Shown piece by piece: positions 35,262 to 41,000 of a stretch of 51,528 nt of DNA. Both the position numbers and the translations under genes were made by a program. The notes under the pieces are model-generated. The model had not been told where the DNA came from. It ran no database searches and saw only the letters and a program-made list of their open reading frames with translations. Positions within the stretch are counted from its first letter, which is position 1, and each line of letters begins with the position of its first letter. The DNA is from an uncultured Caryophanales bacterium (GTDB taxonomy: Bacteria; Bacillota_I; Bacilli_A; RF39; UBA660). The stretch is from assembly GCA_946412015.1 (NCBI GenBank), contig CAMKGA010000009.1, forward strand, positions 1 to 51,528, given 5' to 3'.

Positions 35262-35283
35262 AAAAGATAGTGTTTTATCTTTT
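35262..35283 (-). terminator. Terminator closing the AAA+/zincin operon
   Basis: Minus-strand hairpin aaaagata / tatctttt, 6-nt loop and a T9 run, 10 nt beyond the zincin gene. It separates that unit from the Tad cluster. Confidence 0.85.
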
Positions 35284-35292
35284 TTATATTAA

Positions 35293-36474
35293 TTATTTAG
35301 TTTTATCATTTTCTTCAATGTTTATTTCACTAGGATTAATATCTGATATAATTGCTTGTCTATTTTCTTGACTCATTTTACAAACATCAAACCTATAACA
35401 TAACATACTATATATAAAATCATAATCTCCTATACCATTTTTTGCACAATCCATCAACTGGCGAATTTCTATTCTCACTAGTTCTGTAGAATATGGTTTC
35501 TGATTTGCAGCGGTATAAATAAGTTCATCAAGTTTTTCTTTACCATAACCTAAATTAATCATATTTTGCCTAAGCTCAACTATTTCAGTTATACTTTTTC
35601 TTTTTCCATCTTTATTATAAATAATAGCAAGAAGTGGAAATTTATCTATTAATCCAGGATTTTTTAAAATCATTATATCTGCAATACTATTAAGACAATT
35701 CATTTTTTTCATTTTCTTATTTTGCACAGTTAGTGTAGAAGAACACATGTTTTGTTTTAATCTTTCATTTTCTTTTAAAACAAACTCTTTACTATATAAA
35801 TCATGTAGTTTCGGATTCAAAATTTTAATAATGCTTAATGCATGATTCAAACCATAAACCTCAGCTTGTAATTCTTTTGAAAGATTATTATAATTATTAT
35901 CATAAAAATTTTTTTCAAAATTCCATGAAATAGTTTCAAGAATATCAATATATATACCTTTAGAATATGTCATAGAAATTTCCTTTTTTATATCACTCAT
36001 CATAATCTGATTTTGAACAGTATGTAAAAATTCATGATATATTGTTCTAATACCCCTTAAAAAAGAATAAATATTATTTGACATTAAATTTTCAATTACT
36101 TTAGGTGAATATACTAAATCAAAATCACTATTATGACTGACGCAAACAGCATTACTATCTCCATATTTTTTTATATACTCTTCTTCTTTTAATATTTTTA
36201 TTTTTATATCCTTTTTAAAACCTAATTTAGATTGCAAAAGAACGTGTTCTCGTGCTAGAGATTTAACTATAAATACTGATTCTTCATAAGATAAATGCCC
36301 TATTTTAAAATTGAATAAATATTTAATTGCATTTCTATATAAATACTTTTCCTTATCAGAAAAACCGATATTATCAATATTACTTATTGCCCACTGAGTA
36401 ATTATTTCATATACTTTACTTGGATCTATCTTTATATTATTAACCGCATATTCATAAATTTCATCTATACTCAT
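35293..36474 (-). CDS. HExxH zincin-like protein
   Basis: 393 residues, cytoplasmic by lack of signal or helix. A metallopeptidase motif, IYHEFLHTVQNQ, gives His147, Glu148 and His151. A Glu in KELQAEVYGLNHAL (about 205) is placed well for the third zinc ligand of a gluzincin. The rest is helical and charged and matches no family I recognise. Third gene of the operon with the ankyrin/AAA+ ATPase and the 963-residue protein (24-nt gap). Substrate unknown. A proteolytic role within the system is inference from the motif. Confidence 0.75.
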   Translation of the reverse strand: MSIDEIYEYAVNNIKIDPSKVYEIITQWAISNIDNIGFSDKEKYLYRNAIKYLFNFKIGHLSYEESVFIVKSLAREHVLLQSKLGFKKDIKIKILKEEEYIKKYGDSNAVCVSHNSDFDLVYSPKVIENLMSNNIYSFLRGIRTIYHEFLHTVQNQIMMSDIKKEISMTYSKGIYIDILETISWNFEKNFYDNNYNNLSKELQAEVYGLNHALSIIKILNPKLHDLYSKEFVLKENERLKQNMCSSTLTVQNKKMKKMNCLNSIADIMILKNPGLIDKFPLLAIIYNKDGKRKSITEIVELRQNMINLGYGKEKLDELIYTAANQKPYSTELVRIEIRQLMDCAKNGIGDYDFIYSMLCYRFDVCKMSQENRQAIISDINPSEINIEENDKTK

Positions 36475-36498
36475 ATTACACCTACTATTAGTAGTATA

Positions 36499-39390
36499 TC
36501 ATAATTTGAGTTTTTTTTCTTTGGTTTTTGAATATATAGATTTTAATTTTAAATAATATTCATCCATTTTATTATATATAGATATATTATAATCATAATA
36601 ATACTTATTTATATTATTATAATTATCAACAGTAATTAACCAATCACTACTACAATATATTTCTTTAAAATCATCTATATATACATACTTATATGAATCT
36701 AATTTATTAACAGATTCATATTCTCTATAAATAAAATCATTTACAATACTACTTACTTTTTCTATAAAATCATCATTATAATTATTATTAGAATTATAAT
36801 ACAATACTTCTTTTCTATTATCATGATATAAATAATTGCTTTGTTTAAGATTAAAATTATTTGTTCCTTTTATAATACATTGCACACACTTAGCATCTGA
36901 ATACCCGGAATAATCAATAGGTTGTGGTAAAGTATTGTAATATATTCTATTACTACCAAGTCTACTTTCATATTTATCCATTTTATCATTAGCTAAAGAT
37001 GAAATCATCACCGGATAATTAATAATATCTTTAATAATTTTATCAAACGTTGTATAACCTAATGTAACTGTCTTAATTGCACAATCTCCTTCATACTTTG
37101 ATGTTATATCAATAATTTTTTTTGCAAATGATAAGTATACATTAAAAAAATCAATTTCATTTAAATCTTTTAATGTTTCAATATTATCTATACATAGTAA
37201 ATCACCAGCTCTCCACAACCAGCTTTGAGCAATTAACTTTCCATCTTTTTTTACTTCTAATACTCTACTATTAACATTATTAATTGCATACTCTAAACTA
37301 GACTTACTCTGCCCATTTACAGTAAAACAGCAATTTGTTTTTTCACCAGTTATTAATATTTCCATATCATCCATATCTAATATTTCATAGGAATAATTAT
37401 CTACAGAACCCCTTATTTTAGGAATTGTAGAAAATTTTCTATTAAGTATTTCATCGTGCAACTTTAAAGTGTTATTAACAACATCATCACTACAACCGAT
37501 ATATTTAAATAAACCTTTTAATCTATAATATTTAGGTGACAATGAAATCGAATCACTATCTAAATAATCAATAATCATATTTAAATTTTTATCCCTATCA
37601 TTAAGTGTTATAAGATTCCACTCACTAAATAGCCTAGGAAAATAACAATATAATTTACTTTTTTTATCCGATATTATTTTTTCTATATCATTTTCTTTAA
37701 ATAATAAATTAATAACTCTTTTATTTAAAATTGGATTATTAAATTTATCAAATTCAATATTTTTAAAATCAACATTCTTAGTTAAATGTTCTAAGGTAGT
37801 ATTACAAGAATCAATACTTAATATTTTTTTACAATTATCAAATCCAACCATAAGCATTAATTTTAATACTAATGTTTTATTAACACAGTTATCCTTGCAT
37901 AGTTTATTTAAATGCTTTAAATTAAATCTTTCAATCTGAGTTACATCAAAATCATTAGTATCTATAATTTTACTATGAGCTTTATTAATAAGTGCGATTT
38001 CCTTTATATTTTTAACTTTTTTTAAAATACAAAGTGAATACTTCATTATAATACTATAGAAAAATTGATCTAATATTTGATAATTAGTAGAATTAATTTC
38101 TTCTATAATTTTATTTTCTTTTAAATATAAAACTAGAAGTGCGAAATGTCTTTGATATACATCACTATTCTTATCAATAATTTTATTTTTTAACAAATAT
38201 TTTAGTTTTGCTAAATTTGAAATAAAAGTATTAGACTTAATACTAGTATCTATGGATATATCACATATGTTTTCTAATACATTTACATTATCTCTATAAT
38301 GCAATTCTAATATTTCTAAAACATTATCATCCTCAAATTCATATTCGAAAGTTGATAATTTAAGATTATATAATTCTTCAAAATTTATGTTTTTAAAACT
38401 AAATAATATCTTCTTAAATTCCTCTTTCATCTTACTATAATCATTTAATATTAATTGATCATTAAATATTCTACTTTTAGATAATATCTTAAGCCAAAGA
38501 GCAATATCTATTTTACTAAACTTATTATTATCACATTTATATAAATCATAAACTGCACAAATATTTATATTTTCTATAAAACACTTAATATTAAAATTAG
38601 ATAATATCAACTCCTTAAAAGTTGATATAAATGTATACTGTTTGTTATCACTTAAGCTAGTTATAAACTTAGTGAAAAGAGAATCATTATAATTATTTAA
38701 TACTTCTTTTATTTTATCATTATATAATTCAATTACTTCTTTATAAACATTTATATTATCAATACTTTTGATAAAATTCATTAATTCTAGTCCACTAAAA
38801 GTACTAATTTTATTTTTATATTTATTTAATATAAAATTCATAAGATTATATGATTCTTCTAATCTCGATTCAATACTTGTTTTCAAATCTTCATCTGATT
38901 TTATGACATAGGGATTAAATCTGTAATTTTCTATTATATGTATAAAAATATCATTATCTAGACTATTAATATTGCTATAACATTCTTTAAAAAAATTATA
39001 ATAATCAGCATTCTCAAAATTATTAAAAAAATCTTCTTTAGAATATTTTAAAATAATTCGAAATAATTCTGAATCAAAATCATTTATTTTCTTAAGTACA
39101 TTAAAAGTAAAATAAGAAGATATAGAATAATTATCTAAGCCATGTTCTTTAAAAATTTCTTTAGCATTTATTTTTATATAATCTGAATTTTCTTTAATAA
39201 AATCCATTTTTTTAAAATCATCAAGTTTACAAATAATATAATAATATGTTAGTGGAGAAAAATCCTTTATATCACACTTTATACAATTTATATAATCTTC
39301 CGCTTGTTTGAAAGCTTCATTTGTTTTAACAGTATCTCTTTGTAATTGTCTAAATATTCTATTTAATATATTTGCATCTATATCAGGCAT
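36499..39390 (-). CDS. 963-residue helical protein with acyltransferase-like C-terminus
   Basis: Unrecognised. The first 640 residues are highly helical, Asn/Lys/Ile-rich, with a regular pattern of short helices like an alpha-solenoid. From about residue 655 the character changes: GSVDNYSYEILDMDDMEILI, KTNCCFTVNGQSKSSLEYAI, SRVLEVKKDGKLIAQSWLWR, LLCIDNIETL, FAKKIIDITSKY. The strand-helix order and a GKLIAQSWLWR-like core strand suggest a GNAT-type acyltransferase fold, seen by pattern only. A tail with many Tyr and Asn follows. No membrane helices. 2-nt gap to the AAA+ gene, showing tight co-expression. An unusually long gene for the region, with an intact frame. Confidence 0.7.
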   Translation of the reverse strand: MPDIDANILNRIFRQLQRDTVKTNEAFKQAEDYINCIKCDIKDFSPLTYYYIICKLDDFKKMDFIKENSDYIKINAKEIFKEHGLDNYSISSYFTFNVLKKINDFDSELFRIILKYSKEDFFNNFENADYYNFFKECYSNINSLDNDIFIHIIENYRFNPYVIKSDEDLKTSIESRLEESYNLMNFILNKYKNKISTFSGLELMNFIKSIDNINVYKEVIELYNDKIKEVLNNYNDSLFTKFITSLSDNKQYTFISTFKELILSNFNIKCFIENINICAVYDLYKCDNNKFSKIDIALWLKILSKSRIFNDQLILNDYSKMKEEFKKILFSFKNINFEELYNLKLSTFEYEFEDDNVLEILELHYRDNVNVLENICDISIDTSIKSNTFISNLAKLKYLLKNKIIDKNSDVYQRHFALLVLYLKENKIIEEINSTNYQILDQFFYSIIMKYSLCILKKVKNIKEIALINKAHSKIIDTNDFDVTQIERFNLKHLNKLCKDNCVNKTLVLKLMLMVGFDNCKKILSIDSCNTTLEHLTKNVDFKNIEFDKFNNPILNKRVINLLFKENDIEKIISDKKSKLYCYFPRLFSEWNLITLNDRDKNLNMIIDYLDSDSISLSPKYYRLKGLFKYIGCSDDVVNNTLKLHDEILNRKFSTIPKIRGSVDNYSYEILDMDDMEILITGEKTNCCFTVNGQSKSSLEYAINNVNSRVLEVKKDGKLIAQSWLWRAGDLLCIDNIETLKDLNEIDFFNVYLSFAKKIIDITSKYEGDCAIKTVTLGYTTFDKIIKDIINYPVMISSLANDKMDKYESRLGSNRIYYNTLPQPIDYSGYSDAKCVQCIIKGTNNFNLKQSNYLYHDNRKEVLYYNSNNNYNDDFIEKVSSIVNDFIYREYESVNKLDSYKYVYIDDFKEIYCSSDWLITVDNYNNINKYYYDYNISIYNKMDEYYLKLKSIYSKTKEKKLKL

Positions 39391-39392
39391 AG

Positions 39393-40925
39393 TTACCTCT
39401 TTCTAGATTTATAAAAATCTATTTTTAATATTTTACTTGCTTGTTCATATTTTTTAGTGGATAACATTTCTAATTTTGAAATTGCATTATTTTTTACAGA
39501 TTCGTATATTCTATCACAACAACTTATACTTTCTATAAAATGAGTTTGATCAATAAAACTACTATCATAATATTTAGCAAACGCAAAAGATTTATCAATA
39601 ATTGAAATAGCAAGAGCAGGATTATTCATTTTATCATTATATACTCTATGTTTTTCTTTTGTAGCTTCGATAACTATTCTTATAATATCGCTTTTTAGAT
39701 TAGCATTTTCAAAATAGTATCCAGTATTATTACAATTATCACATATTACTTTATCAATAATTTGATACAAAATATCTAGACTTGGTTCTTTAACCTCAAT
39801 ATATTCAAATCTTCTTTTTAATGCACTAGAAGAAAAATACTTTTCATACTCTTCTTTAGTTGTAGTACCTATTACTTTTAAATTATTTCTATCTATTTGT
39901 CTTTTTAATATCGATGCCATATCATTATTTTTACCTTCTGCTGAGCCAACACCAAAAATAGTATGTACCTCATCAATAAATAAAATAATATTATATTTTT
40001 TGCAAATATTAATAACACTATTCATTTTTTCTTCAAAAGTTCCAACATATTTACAACCCGCAACAATACTTGCAGGGTCCATTTCTAATATTAGTTGATT
40101 ATTTAAAAAACTAGGTACATTATCTGTTTTTATCATATACACTAGTTGATCAACTAAAGCCGTTTTTCCAACACCAGATTCTCCTACAATAATAGGTGTT
40201 GATTTTTCTAAAGCAAGCGTTACTATTATTTTTTTCATTTCGTTATCTCTACCTATTGCTGGTGTATTTATATATTCTTTATTATTTAAAAGAGTACCAT
40301 ATTTTTCTATTTCACTAATTTCTTTATCTGTTAATGTATTAACTTTTTTTCTTTTTGCTTTAATATCATCACTAATACTATTCATTTGTTTTTTATATTC
40401 ATTTTCAAATTCTAATATATCATTTTTAGAAAATTTATTTTCTTTAATCATTGTCTCTAGTATATTTTTTCCCAAATGATCAGTAATATTTGAATCAAAT
40501 CCATTATCACATAAAAGTTTATAAATATTTATTATTTTACCGTGATAATTATCACTATATATTGCAGTATGAACAATAGTATCTAAATCACTATCTTGAT
40601 GATTAACATCAAGTCCATTTTTTAAAGCTAGCTTTATTATATTTAAAATAAATGTTTCATTATAACCTGTATAAAGAGCATTTTGAATAAAGTTATATGA
40701 AAAATCATCACATAAATTAGGATTTAAGCCTGCTTTTAAAAGAGATTCTATTGCAAGCATACACTTATTATTATCATAAAGTTCTGATACAAATATATGA
40801 AGTAATGACTGATTCTCATAATCTACATATTCCATATTTTTAAATTCAGATTCTATAAGCGTTATATTTTTATCAATATCTTTAGTCATTTTCTTAATTA
40901 TTTTTTCTACTTTTTCCTTCTCCAT
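39393..40925 (-). CDS. Ankyrin-repeat Clp-type AAA+ ATPase
   Basis: About 510 residues. Residues about 35-180 hold ankyrin-like repeats (NQSLLHIFVSELYDN, LLKAGLNPNLCDD, LALKNGLDVNHQDSDLDTIVHTAI, LLCDNGFDSNITDHLGKNIL). Residues about 225-430 are a ClpA/ClpB first-domain-type AAA+ module: AIGRDNEMKKII, Walker A VGESGVGKTALVDQL, KYVGTFEEKM (pore loop), Walker B ILFIDEVHTIFGVGSAEG, sensor IGTTTKEEY, ALKRRFEYIEV. There is no second ATPase domain and no ClpP-binding loop was seen. Start at ATG 40925 with aggggagat; the upstream ATG lacks a site. First gene of a three-gene unit, probably recognising partners through the ankyrin part. Confidence 0.85.
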   Translation of the reverse strand: MEKEKVEKIIKKMTKDIDKNITLIESEFKNMEYVDYENQSLLHIFVSELYDNNKCMLAIESLLKAGLNPNLCDDFSYNFIQNALYTGYNETFILNIIKLALKNGLDVNHQDSDLDTIVHTAIYSDNYHGKIINIYKLLCDNGFDSNITDHLGKNILETMIKENKFSKNDILEFENEYKKQMNSISDDIKAKRKKVNTLTDKEISEIEKYGTLLNNKEYINTPAIGRDNEMKKIIVTLALEKSTPIIVGESGVGKTALVDQLVYMIKTDNVPSFLNNQLILEMDPASIVAGCKYVGTFEEKMNSVINICKKYNIILFIDEVHTIFGVGSAEGKNNDMASILKRQIDRNNLKVIGTTTKEEYEKYFSSSALKRRFEYIEVKEPSLDILYQIIDKVICDNCNNTGYYFENANLKSDIIRIVIEATKEKHRVYNDKMNNPALAISIIDKSFAFAKYYDSSFIDQTHFIESISCCDRIYESVKNNAISKLEMLSTKKYEQASKILKIDFYKSRKR

Positions 40926-40947
40926 ATTATCTCCCCTAAATGCGTCT

Positions 40948-40976
40948 ATATTAACATATTTACCTTGTTTTTTCAA
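40948..40976 (-). promoter_or_regulatory. Promoter of the ankyrin/AAA+ operon
   Basis: Minus strand TTGAAA (40976-40971), 17 nt, TAATAT (40953-40948). Transcript start near 40941, leader about 16 nt. Confidence 0.75.
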
Positions 40977-40982
40977 TAAAAA

Positions 40983-41000
40983 AACTGTCTTAAGACAGTT
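40983..41000 (-). terminator. Terminator of the adhesin/sortase unit
   Basis: Palindrome aactgtc ttaa gacagtt followed by T7 on the minus strand, at the sortase stop codon. Confidence 0.85.

Follow-up and report, generated by a model that had tools for sequence, protein, structure and literature searches.

Ankyrin repeats are joined to a Clp-type ATPase in human mitochondrial Skd3 (CLPB), a stand-alone disaggregase that has a GYVG pore loop and needs its ankyrin domain and its AAA domain in cis (PMC7343390). The known immunity proteins of polymorphic toxins also include ankyrin proteins, under the name Imm-ank (PMC3482391). Here we describe a bacterial locus in which a gene of ankyrin–AAA+ type stands beside a gene for a 963-aa protein with a predicted GNAT-fold domain. 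Our searches of the literature on PcfJ/GNAT, on ankyrin proteins in RF39 and on ankyrin/AAA defence returned nothing about the family of this second protein. The locus lies in a stretch of 51,528 nucleotides from an uncultured Caryophanales bacterium (hereafter, the window), which is contig C9 of a 1.69-Mb assembly in 57 contigs.

Organization of the locus

The locus consists of three tightly packed open reading frames, which are listed here with the signals around them (positions in the window).

40983–41000, minus strand: terminator-like hairpin AACTGTCTTAAGACAGTT followed by a T run, ending the sortase/adhesin unit (−7.3 kcal/mol, z −2.65)
40948–40976, minus strand: possible promoter TTGAAA-17-TAATAT, found in the sequence directly after the terminator-like hairpin of the sortase gene
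39393–40925, minus strand: gene 1, 510 aa, with ankyrin and AAA matches and with homologues (54–56% identical) upstream of gene-2 homologues; ankyrin repeats at about residues 1–190, D1-type AAA+ at about 205–455, then a conserved tail ending ..LKIDF..
36499–39390, minus strand: gene 2, 963 aa; parts predicted from AlphaFold models and fold search are an all-helical solenoid (6–650), a GNAT-fold domain (about 655–842) and a small beta-meander/helix domain (about 863–962)
36871–37584, minus strand: predicted GNAT-fold 'CC-SWxWR-CxDNxE' domain of gene 2, taken from alignments and used as the search query
35293–36474, minus strand: gene 3, a 393-aa gluzincin-like protein with HEFLH at 147–151, Lys172, Tyr191 and Glu201
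35262–35283, minus strand: AT-rich hairpin followed by a T run, the probable terminator of the unit (−6.7 kcal/mol, z −3.8)

The gaps between the genes are 2 nt (genes 1 and 2, 39393/39390) and 24 nt (genes 2 and 3, 36499/36474), exactly as the first-pass annotation of this DNA had given them. It had also placed the unit between an adhesin/sortase pair and the Tad cluster, and the flanking genes agree, with a sortase gene and a SpaA/thioester-type adhesin gene upstream and a Tad pilus cluster downstream. Its promoter, TTGAAA-17-TAATAT, does exist in the sequence but carries no statistical weight: a consensus scan found 79 promoter-like sites where 71.4 ± 8.4 were expected from shuffled sequence, so that shuffles give as many. 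Since the promoter lies just after the hairpin of the sortase gene, it stays plausible that the three reading frames are a transcription unit of their own. The terminator at the other end falls under the GC threshold of our terminator scan and is supported by its fold z-score.

The GC content of the unit is 21.7%, compared with 25.1% in the rest of the window. Direct repeats at its ends were low-complexity AT matches only and mark no insertion boundary. In genomes of the same genus the sortase pair and the Tad cluster lie on separate contigs with other genes beside them, and no empty site could be read there. A different protein of 592 aa, which has no Pfam match, is encoded on the same side of the sortase gene in G002 (L201:2887-4665), hinting that the site is variable; in G003 a LysM-like protein follows the sortase pair. 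A pairwise search gave no gene-2 match in the same-genus genomes, one of which has a weak domain match. The unit is accessory and variably placed.

Gene 3 and its neighbours

The HExxH motif together with a downstream Glu is the ligand set expected of a working gluzincin. In an alignment of 23 sequences of the gene-3 family, His147, Glu148, His151, Glu201, Lys172 and Tyr191 were invariant, and Glu201 lies in an ExxA motif 50 residues after HExxH. The HEFLH motif noted earlier is therefore intact and has its third ligand, and from its sequence gene 3 is a credible gluzincin. One further, distant family match (L167) has no HExxH. The nearest described zincins are DUF6782 and Peptidase_MA, which share HExxH; two of the 23 family members weakly matched DUF6782 (best E 5e-4), whereas gene 3 of the window itself matched nothing and has the additional invariant Lys172, Tyr191 and ExxA. 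Comparison of gene 3 with solved structures gave chance EF-hand matches only.

The first-pass annotation had seen in the three genes an unfoldase, a large recognition or effector protein and a peptidase. The tight operon, the conserved active-site residues of the zincin and the intact AAA motifs of gene 1 would suit such regulated proteolysis, with the solenoid of gene 2 as the adaptor. However, the distribution of the zincin argues against it. The family was found in 56 of 370 genomes of the order, as stand-alone genes, and nowhere among those 56 except in the window was it on one contig with a gene-2 homologue; elsewhere its members never adjoin homologues of gene 1 or gene 2, and the 23 other zincin loci that we inspected lie among unrelated genes. 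Three other genomes with ankyrin–AAA and gene-2 homologues (G145, G100 and G386) had no zincin match in the stretch around each locus, which in G100 reaches just ~540 bases beyond gene 2. Gene 1, moreover, has neither a D2 ring nor a ClpP-docking loop. The three-gene proteolysis module was rejected on this gene-neighbour evidence, and we consider regulated proteolysis by the three proteins very unlikely. Homologues that are never neighbours in other genomes, which had been named beforehand as counting against the trio, were thus found for the zincin and not for genes 1 and 2. We judge that gene 3 joined the operon in this genome only and is a neighbour by chance; lying 24 nt behind gene 2, it could nevertheless have been functionally recruited here. 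Leaving the zincin out as a part that is not conserved prevents a false 'proteolysis module' from being recorded.

Gene 1 joins ankyrin repeats to a single Clp D1-type ring

The start of gene 1 was set at the ATG at 40925 because three homologues begin there; a TTG at 40976 falls inside the proposed −35 box. Pfam recognized ankyrin repeats (Ank_4, E 4e-8) and one AAA domain, and the part of it with the ATPase matched, in NCBIfam and PDB, the D1 ring of ClpA/ClpB/ClpC, in full agreement with the earlier reading of ankyrin repeats and one ClpA/B-type domain. The AAA motifs are intact: GESGVGKT at 248 (Walker A), ILFIDE at 314 (Walker B), KYVG at 292 (pore loop) and RRF at 371 (arginine finger). 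The second ring (D2) is absent, as the profile match spans D1 only, and no ClpP-docking tripeptide [LIVMP]G[FL] was found in gene 1; ClpP itself is encoded in this genome.

The same fusion occurs in G145, G100 and G386, always with the LKIDF tail (54–56% identity). Further lineages have the ankyrin part either as a protein by itself (~195 aa) or with an extension at its C-terminus that contains no AAA (~470–540 aa). Elsewhere in the genome of the window, on contig C20 (L018:6881-7861), a stand-alone 326-aa AAA+ protein with a Clp D1 ring only, which is another single-ring relative of gene 1, is encoded directly after a LysM-like gene.

Gene 2 carries a domain of predicted GNAT fold

Gene 2 had no match in Pfam, NCBIfam, PADLOC or PDB sequences, and nothing significant in PHROGs. 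The full-length AlphaFold model, made from a 13-sequence alignment, had a pLDDT of 83.4 and a pTM of 0.54, which leaves the overall shape uncertain, whereas the mixed domain modelled alone from 24 sequences reached a pLDDT of 89.8 and a pTM of 0.88, with its elements in GNAT order. When this domain was searched with Foldseek, GNATs came first (best E 3.8e-4), at TM-scores to solved GNATs of just 0.3–0.5; a fold search with the full-length model returned matches from the GNAT part only. The models support the earlier description of a solenoid-like protein with an acyltransferase-like C-terminus, in the form of a helical solenoid and a GNAT-like domain.

The domain has invariant residues of its own, CC...SWxWR...CxDNxE; CxDN[IV]E is kept in 98 of 102 members and SWxW in 94. 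The acetyl-CoA pyrophosphate loop Q/RxxGxG/A (beta4/alpha3) was found after CxDN[IV]E in 0 of 98 members. Because this loop is missing in all members tested, we call the domain GNAT-fold and not acetyltransferase. A fold search of a viral library pointed to PcfJ-like proteins (PF14284) of phages and conjugative elements, one fragment giving a TMt of 0.58 at an rmsd of 3.7, and a conserved Cys that precedes a beta hairpin is common to both. Membership in PF14284 was rejected, as hhalign against eight PcfJ domains gave a probability of 0.1, and the likeness is one of fold only. Gene 2 is a member of a large family without a name, in which the C-terminal domain has a predicted GNAT fold.

Genes 1 and 2 form a conserved pair

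Profiles were rebuilt for the genes neighbouring the domain and then applied to all fetched loci. Three mutually unrelated partner families adjoin the giant domain genes on the same strand, namely ankyrin proteins, ALDH-like proteins and a family designated P250. The ankyrin partner was at most 100 nt from the giant gene in 14 of 16 cases, P250 was adjacent in 11 of 12, and the ALDH-like partner (~320–345 aa; Pfam Aldedh, E 1e-6 to 2e-8) in 41 of 42. No cysteine is invariant in the ALDH-like proteins; the alignment column richest in Cys has it in 21 of 35.

Ankyrin and gene-2 homologues are usually separated by −23 to +29 nt, and in G145, G100 and G386 the ankyrin–AAA gene is upstream of the gene-2 homologue, in the same order as in the window. 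An ankyrin profile built from domain-adjacent loci was run on 370 genomes; its 13 strongest matches were all at most 3.6 kb from a domain gene, and the six that came from outside the seed alignment (G381, G214, G153, G168, G200 and G175) each adjoin one. Weaker matches, probably to generic ankyrin proteins, were not near domain genes. When a maximum-likelihood tree was built from 89 domains, the partner type proved strongly clustered on it (15 changes versus 44 in shuffles), and P250 made up one side of a branch. With 100/100 support the window domain grouped with those of G145, G100 and G386, of one genome with an ankyrin partner and of a truncated contig. Most domain genes have one of the three partners beside them; for 31 of the 89 none was detected adjacent, and some of these come from contig ends or have an intervening paralogue. 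From the co-occurrence of the ankyrin genes and the scattering of the zincins, we therefore conclude that genes 1 and 2 belong together as a conserved pair, their homologues being neighbours in other genomes, and that gene 3 does not; the trio is not conserved.

At two loci (L011:6127-10573 and L052:4609-13084), one or more giant domain genes and an ankyrin gene are found between genes that we take, from our own reading of the sequences, to be nusG and L11/L1. This placement suggests co-expression with the translation machinery.

A close partner that is swapped between unrelated families, a patchy distribution and an enzyme-like domain placed towards the C-terminal end of a long repeat protein would also fit a toxin and its immunity protein: the GNAT-like domain would be the toxin, its partner (ankyrin, ALDH-like or P250) would neutralize it, and the AAA+ ring would dismantle the complex. 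GNAT toxins that acetylate tRNA do exist. The adjacent ankyrin gene, too, recalls Imm-ank (PMC3482391). However, inspection of gene 2 by eye revealed neither a secretion signal nor a trafficking domain. The conserved part is the C-terminal domain, and it is the N-termini that differ in sequence and length, which is the reverse of what polymorphic toxins show; and the expression with ribosomal genes that a place between nusG and L11 would entail suits a dangerous toxin poorly. We therefore regard a toxin as unlikely; it is the chief alternative to the reading that we favour.

Spread of the domain family and its phage relatives

The domain profile matched 104 of 385 genomes of the order, some of them with several copies, and 72 domain loci were collected from GTDB genomes. 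The organisms with relatives of the domain are named uncultured Bacilli, Clostridia, Bacillales or Tenericutes, and the proteins are often 1000–1700 aa long. Contig C3 of the genome of the window encodes two more copies of the C-terminal region of gene 2, in proteins of 1329 and 1551 aa; this locus (L017:5899-17693) has, besides the two giants, an ALDH-like partner that overlaps by 11 nt and a 615-aa protein with HENGH, which had no match to the gene-3 profile. One contig of G150 (C1:27691-34577) has the domain three times in tandem, the open frames being 1022–1060 aa long. In G030 (L012:7393-11593) a divergent domain giant stands beside a 425-aa protein with weak similarity to PemK/MazF toxins. 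One giant (L110) comes from a contig assigned to a Methanobrevibacter bin; it groups tightly with Bacillota copies in the tree, so the contig was probably misbinned.

No relative of the gene-2 domain was found on plasmids, nor in viral contigs when these were pattern-scanned with the alignment of the bacterial domains. A scan seeded with cyanophage proteins found six IMG/VR contigs with the domain, and the named phages that have it are Microcystis phages only. ORF68L of Microcystis phage MaMV-DC and the IMG/VR proteins (~640–700 aa) are distant homologues of the domain that keep TKCC, IAQSWTW, CFDNCE and YTDA and have it near the C-terminus, as in gene 2, but they are phage genes with 24–29% identity. 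No ankyrin, ALDH-like or P250 partner was detected in the phage contexts inspected. ORF68L (L217:2573-4666) and L218–L223 have no assignment in the phage record, and ORF68L has no Pfam match. A phage origin of the window unit was rejected, as only the cyanophage-seeded scan was positive.

The first-pass annotation had also called the unit possibly defence-like. In anti-phage or other intracellular defence the solenoid would sense, the GNAT-like domain would act and the ankyrin–AAA protein would gate. Large helical-repeat proteins with an effector and an ATPase are a plan known from defence proteins, which the pair resembles; tandem paralogues of the domain gene occur, and the unit is accessory and patchy, the same-genus genomes having no full gene-2 match and other genes at the site. 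Against this, PADLOC gave no match for genes 2 and 3 and only weak, ATPase-type ones for gene 1, known defence genes were not enriched in the neighbourhoods by eye, and relatives of the domain are found in phages themselves, so that defence seems to us decidedly unlikely.

The same cyanophage relatives bear on a further possibility, that the ankyrin and solenoid proteins are an effector pair acting on the animal host of a gut bacterium. The lineage is gut-associated, and ankyrin and solenoid-enzyme architectures are common among effectors; but no export signal was seen, Tad is a pilus assembly system, and cyanophage relatives point to an intracellular role in bacteria. We hold this to be the least probable of the readings.

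Discussion

Our favoured reading, held tentatively, is that of an accessory module of two genes in which the ankyrin(–AAA) protein is the cognate regulator or remodeller of the GNAT-like gene 2. It is preferred to a toxin with its immunity protein because the C-terminal domain is constant and two lineages carry the pair between nusG and L11. Gene 2 would be a cytoplasmic enzyme whose helical solenoid selects a target, which the GNAT-like domain would modify by an acyl- or aminoacyl-like transfer. Control would come from the ankyrin partner, which would bind gene 2 or its complex with the target. In the clade of four genomes that includes the window, a single AAA+ ring would have been added to the ankyrin protein, and control may there include ATP-driven threading or remodelling through the KYVG pore, by analogy with Skd3/CLPB; the threaded substrate would not be handed to ClpP. 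As the AAA part is absent from most ankyrin-bearing lineages, ATP-driven remodelling would not be essential to the pair. Catalysis is an assumption, because the TM-scores to solved GNATs are low, and the domain could be a binding fold. The partner, in turn, could inhibit gene 2, serve as a second subunit of the enzyme or be a substrate.

A wider proposal, which we consider rather doubtful, is that the domain represents an undescribed class of GNAT-fold transferases whose active site and donor would be new, with the protein of the neighbouring gene in control of each. If true, uncultured gut Bacilli and Clostridia would possess a modular and widespread system of protein modification that has relatives in phages, and its controllers would be ankyrin or ankyrin–AAA proteins, a pseudo-ALDH or P250. 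Roughly one in four sampled genomes of the order carries the gene-2 family, often in several copies, and the libraries searched have no entry for it; its conserved residues and partner genes make its function testable.

Comparison with known systems

In its predicted topology the gene-2 domain resembles the GNAT superfamily (Foldseek probability 1.00 to PaiA, SACOL1063, GCN5 and Naa60), but it differs in its TM-scores of 0.3–0.5, its identity of 11–13% and its lack of the acetyl-CoA loop and of a Pfam match. With polymorphic toxin–immunity systems that use Imm-ank the pair has the adjacent ankyrin gene in common, whereas their conserved trafficking N-terminus and variable C-terminal toxin are not seen in gene 2.

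Gene 1 matches the D1 ring of ClpC with an E-value of 7e-38 and has the Walker A and B motifs, the KYxG loop and RRF in common with ClpC, ClpA and ClpB, although it has no N-domain, D2 or ClpP-docking loop. Skd3/CLPB has its parts in the same order as gene 1, ankyrin repeats first and then a single Clp-type AAA+ domain, and YVG in the pore loop is common to both (PMC7343390); its ATPase is of the NBD2/HCLR type, whereas that of gene 1 is of the NBD1 (D1) type and encoded in a bacterial operon. Because the Skd3 ring is NBD2-type, the two are likened by analogy only: Skd3/CLPB is the nearest functional analogue of gene 1, with a convergent architecture and not a shared membership. In its domain plan the ankyrin–AAA partner is a D1-based counterpart, from bacteria, of human CLPB, and the plan appears to have arisen independently.
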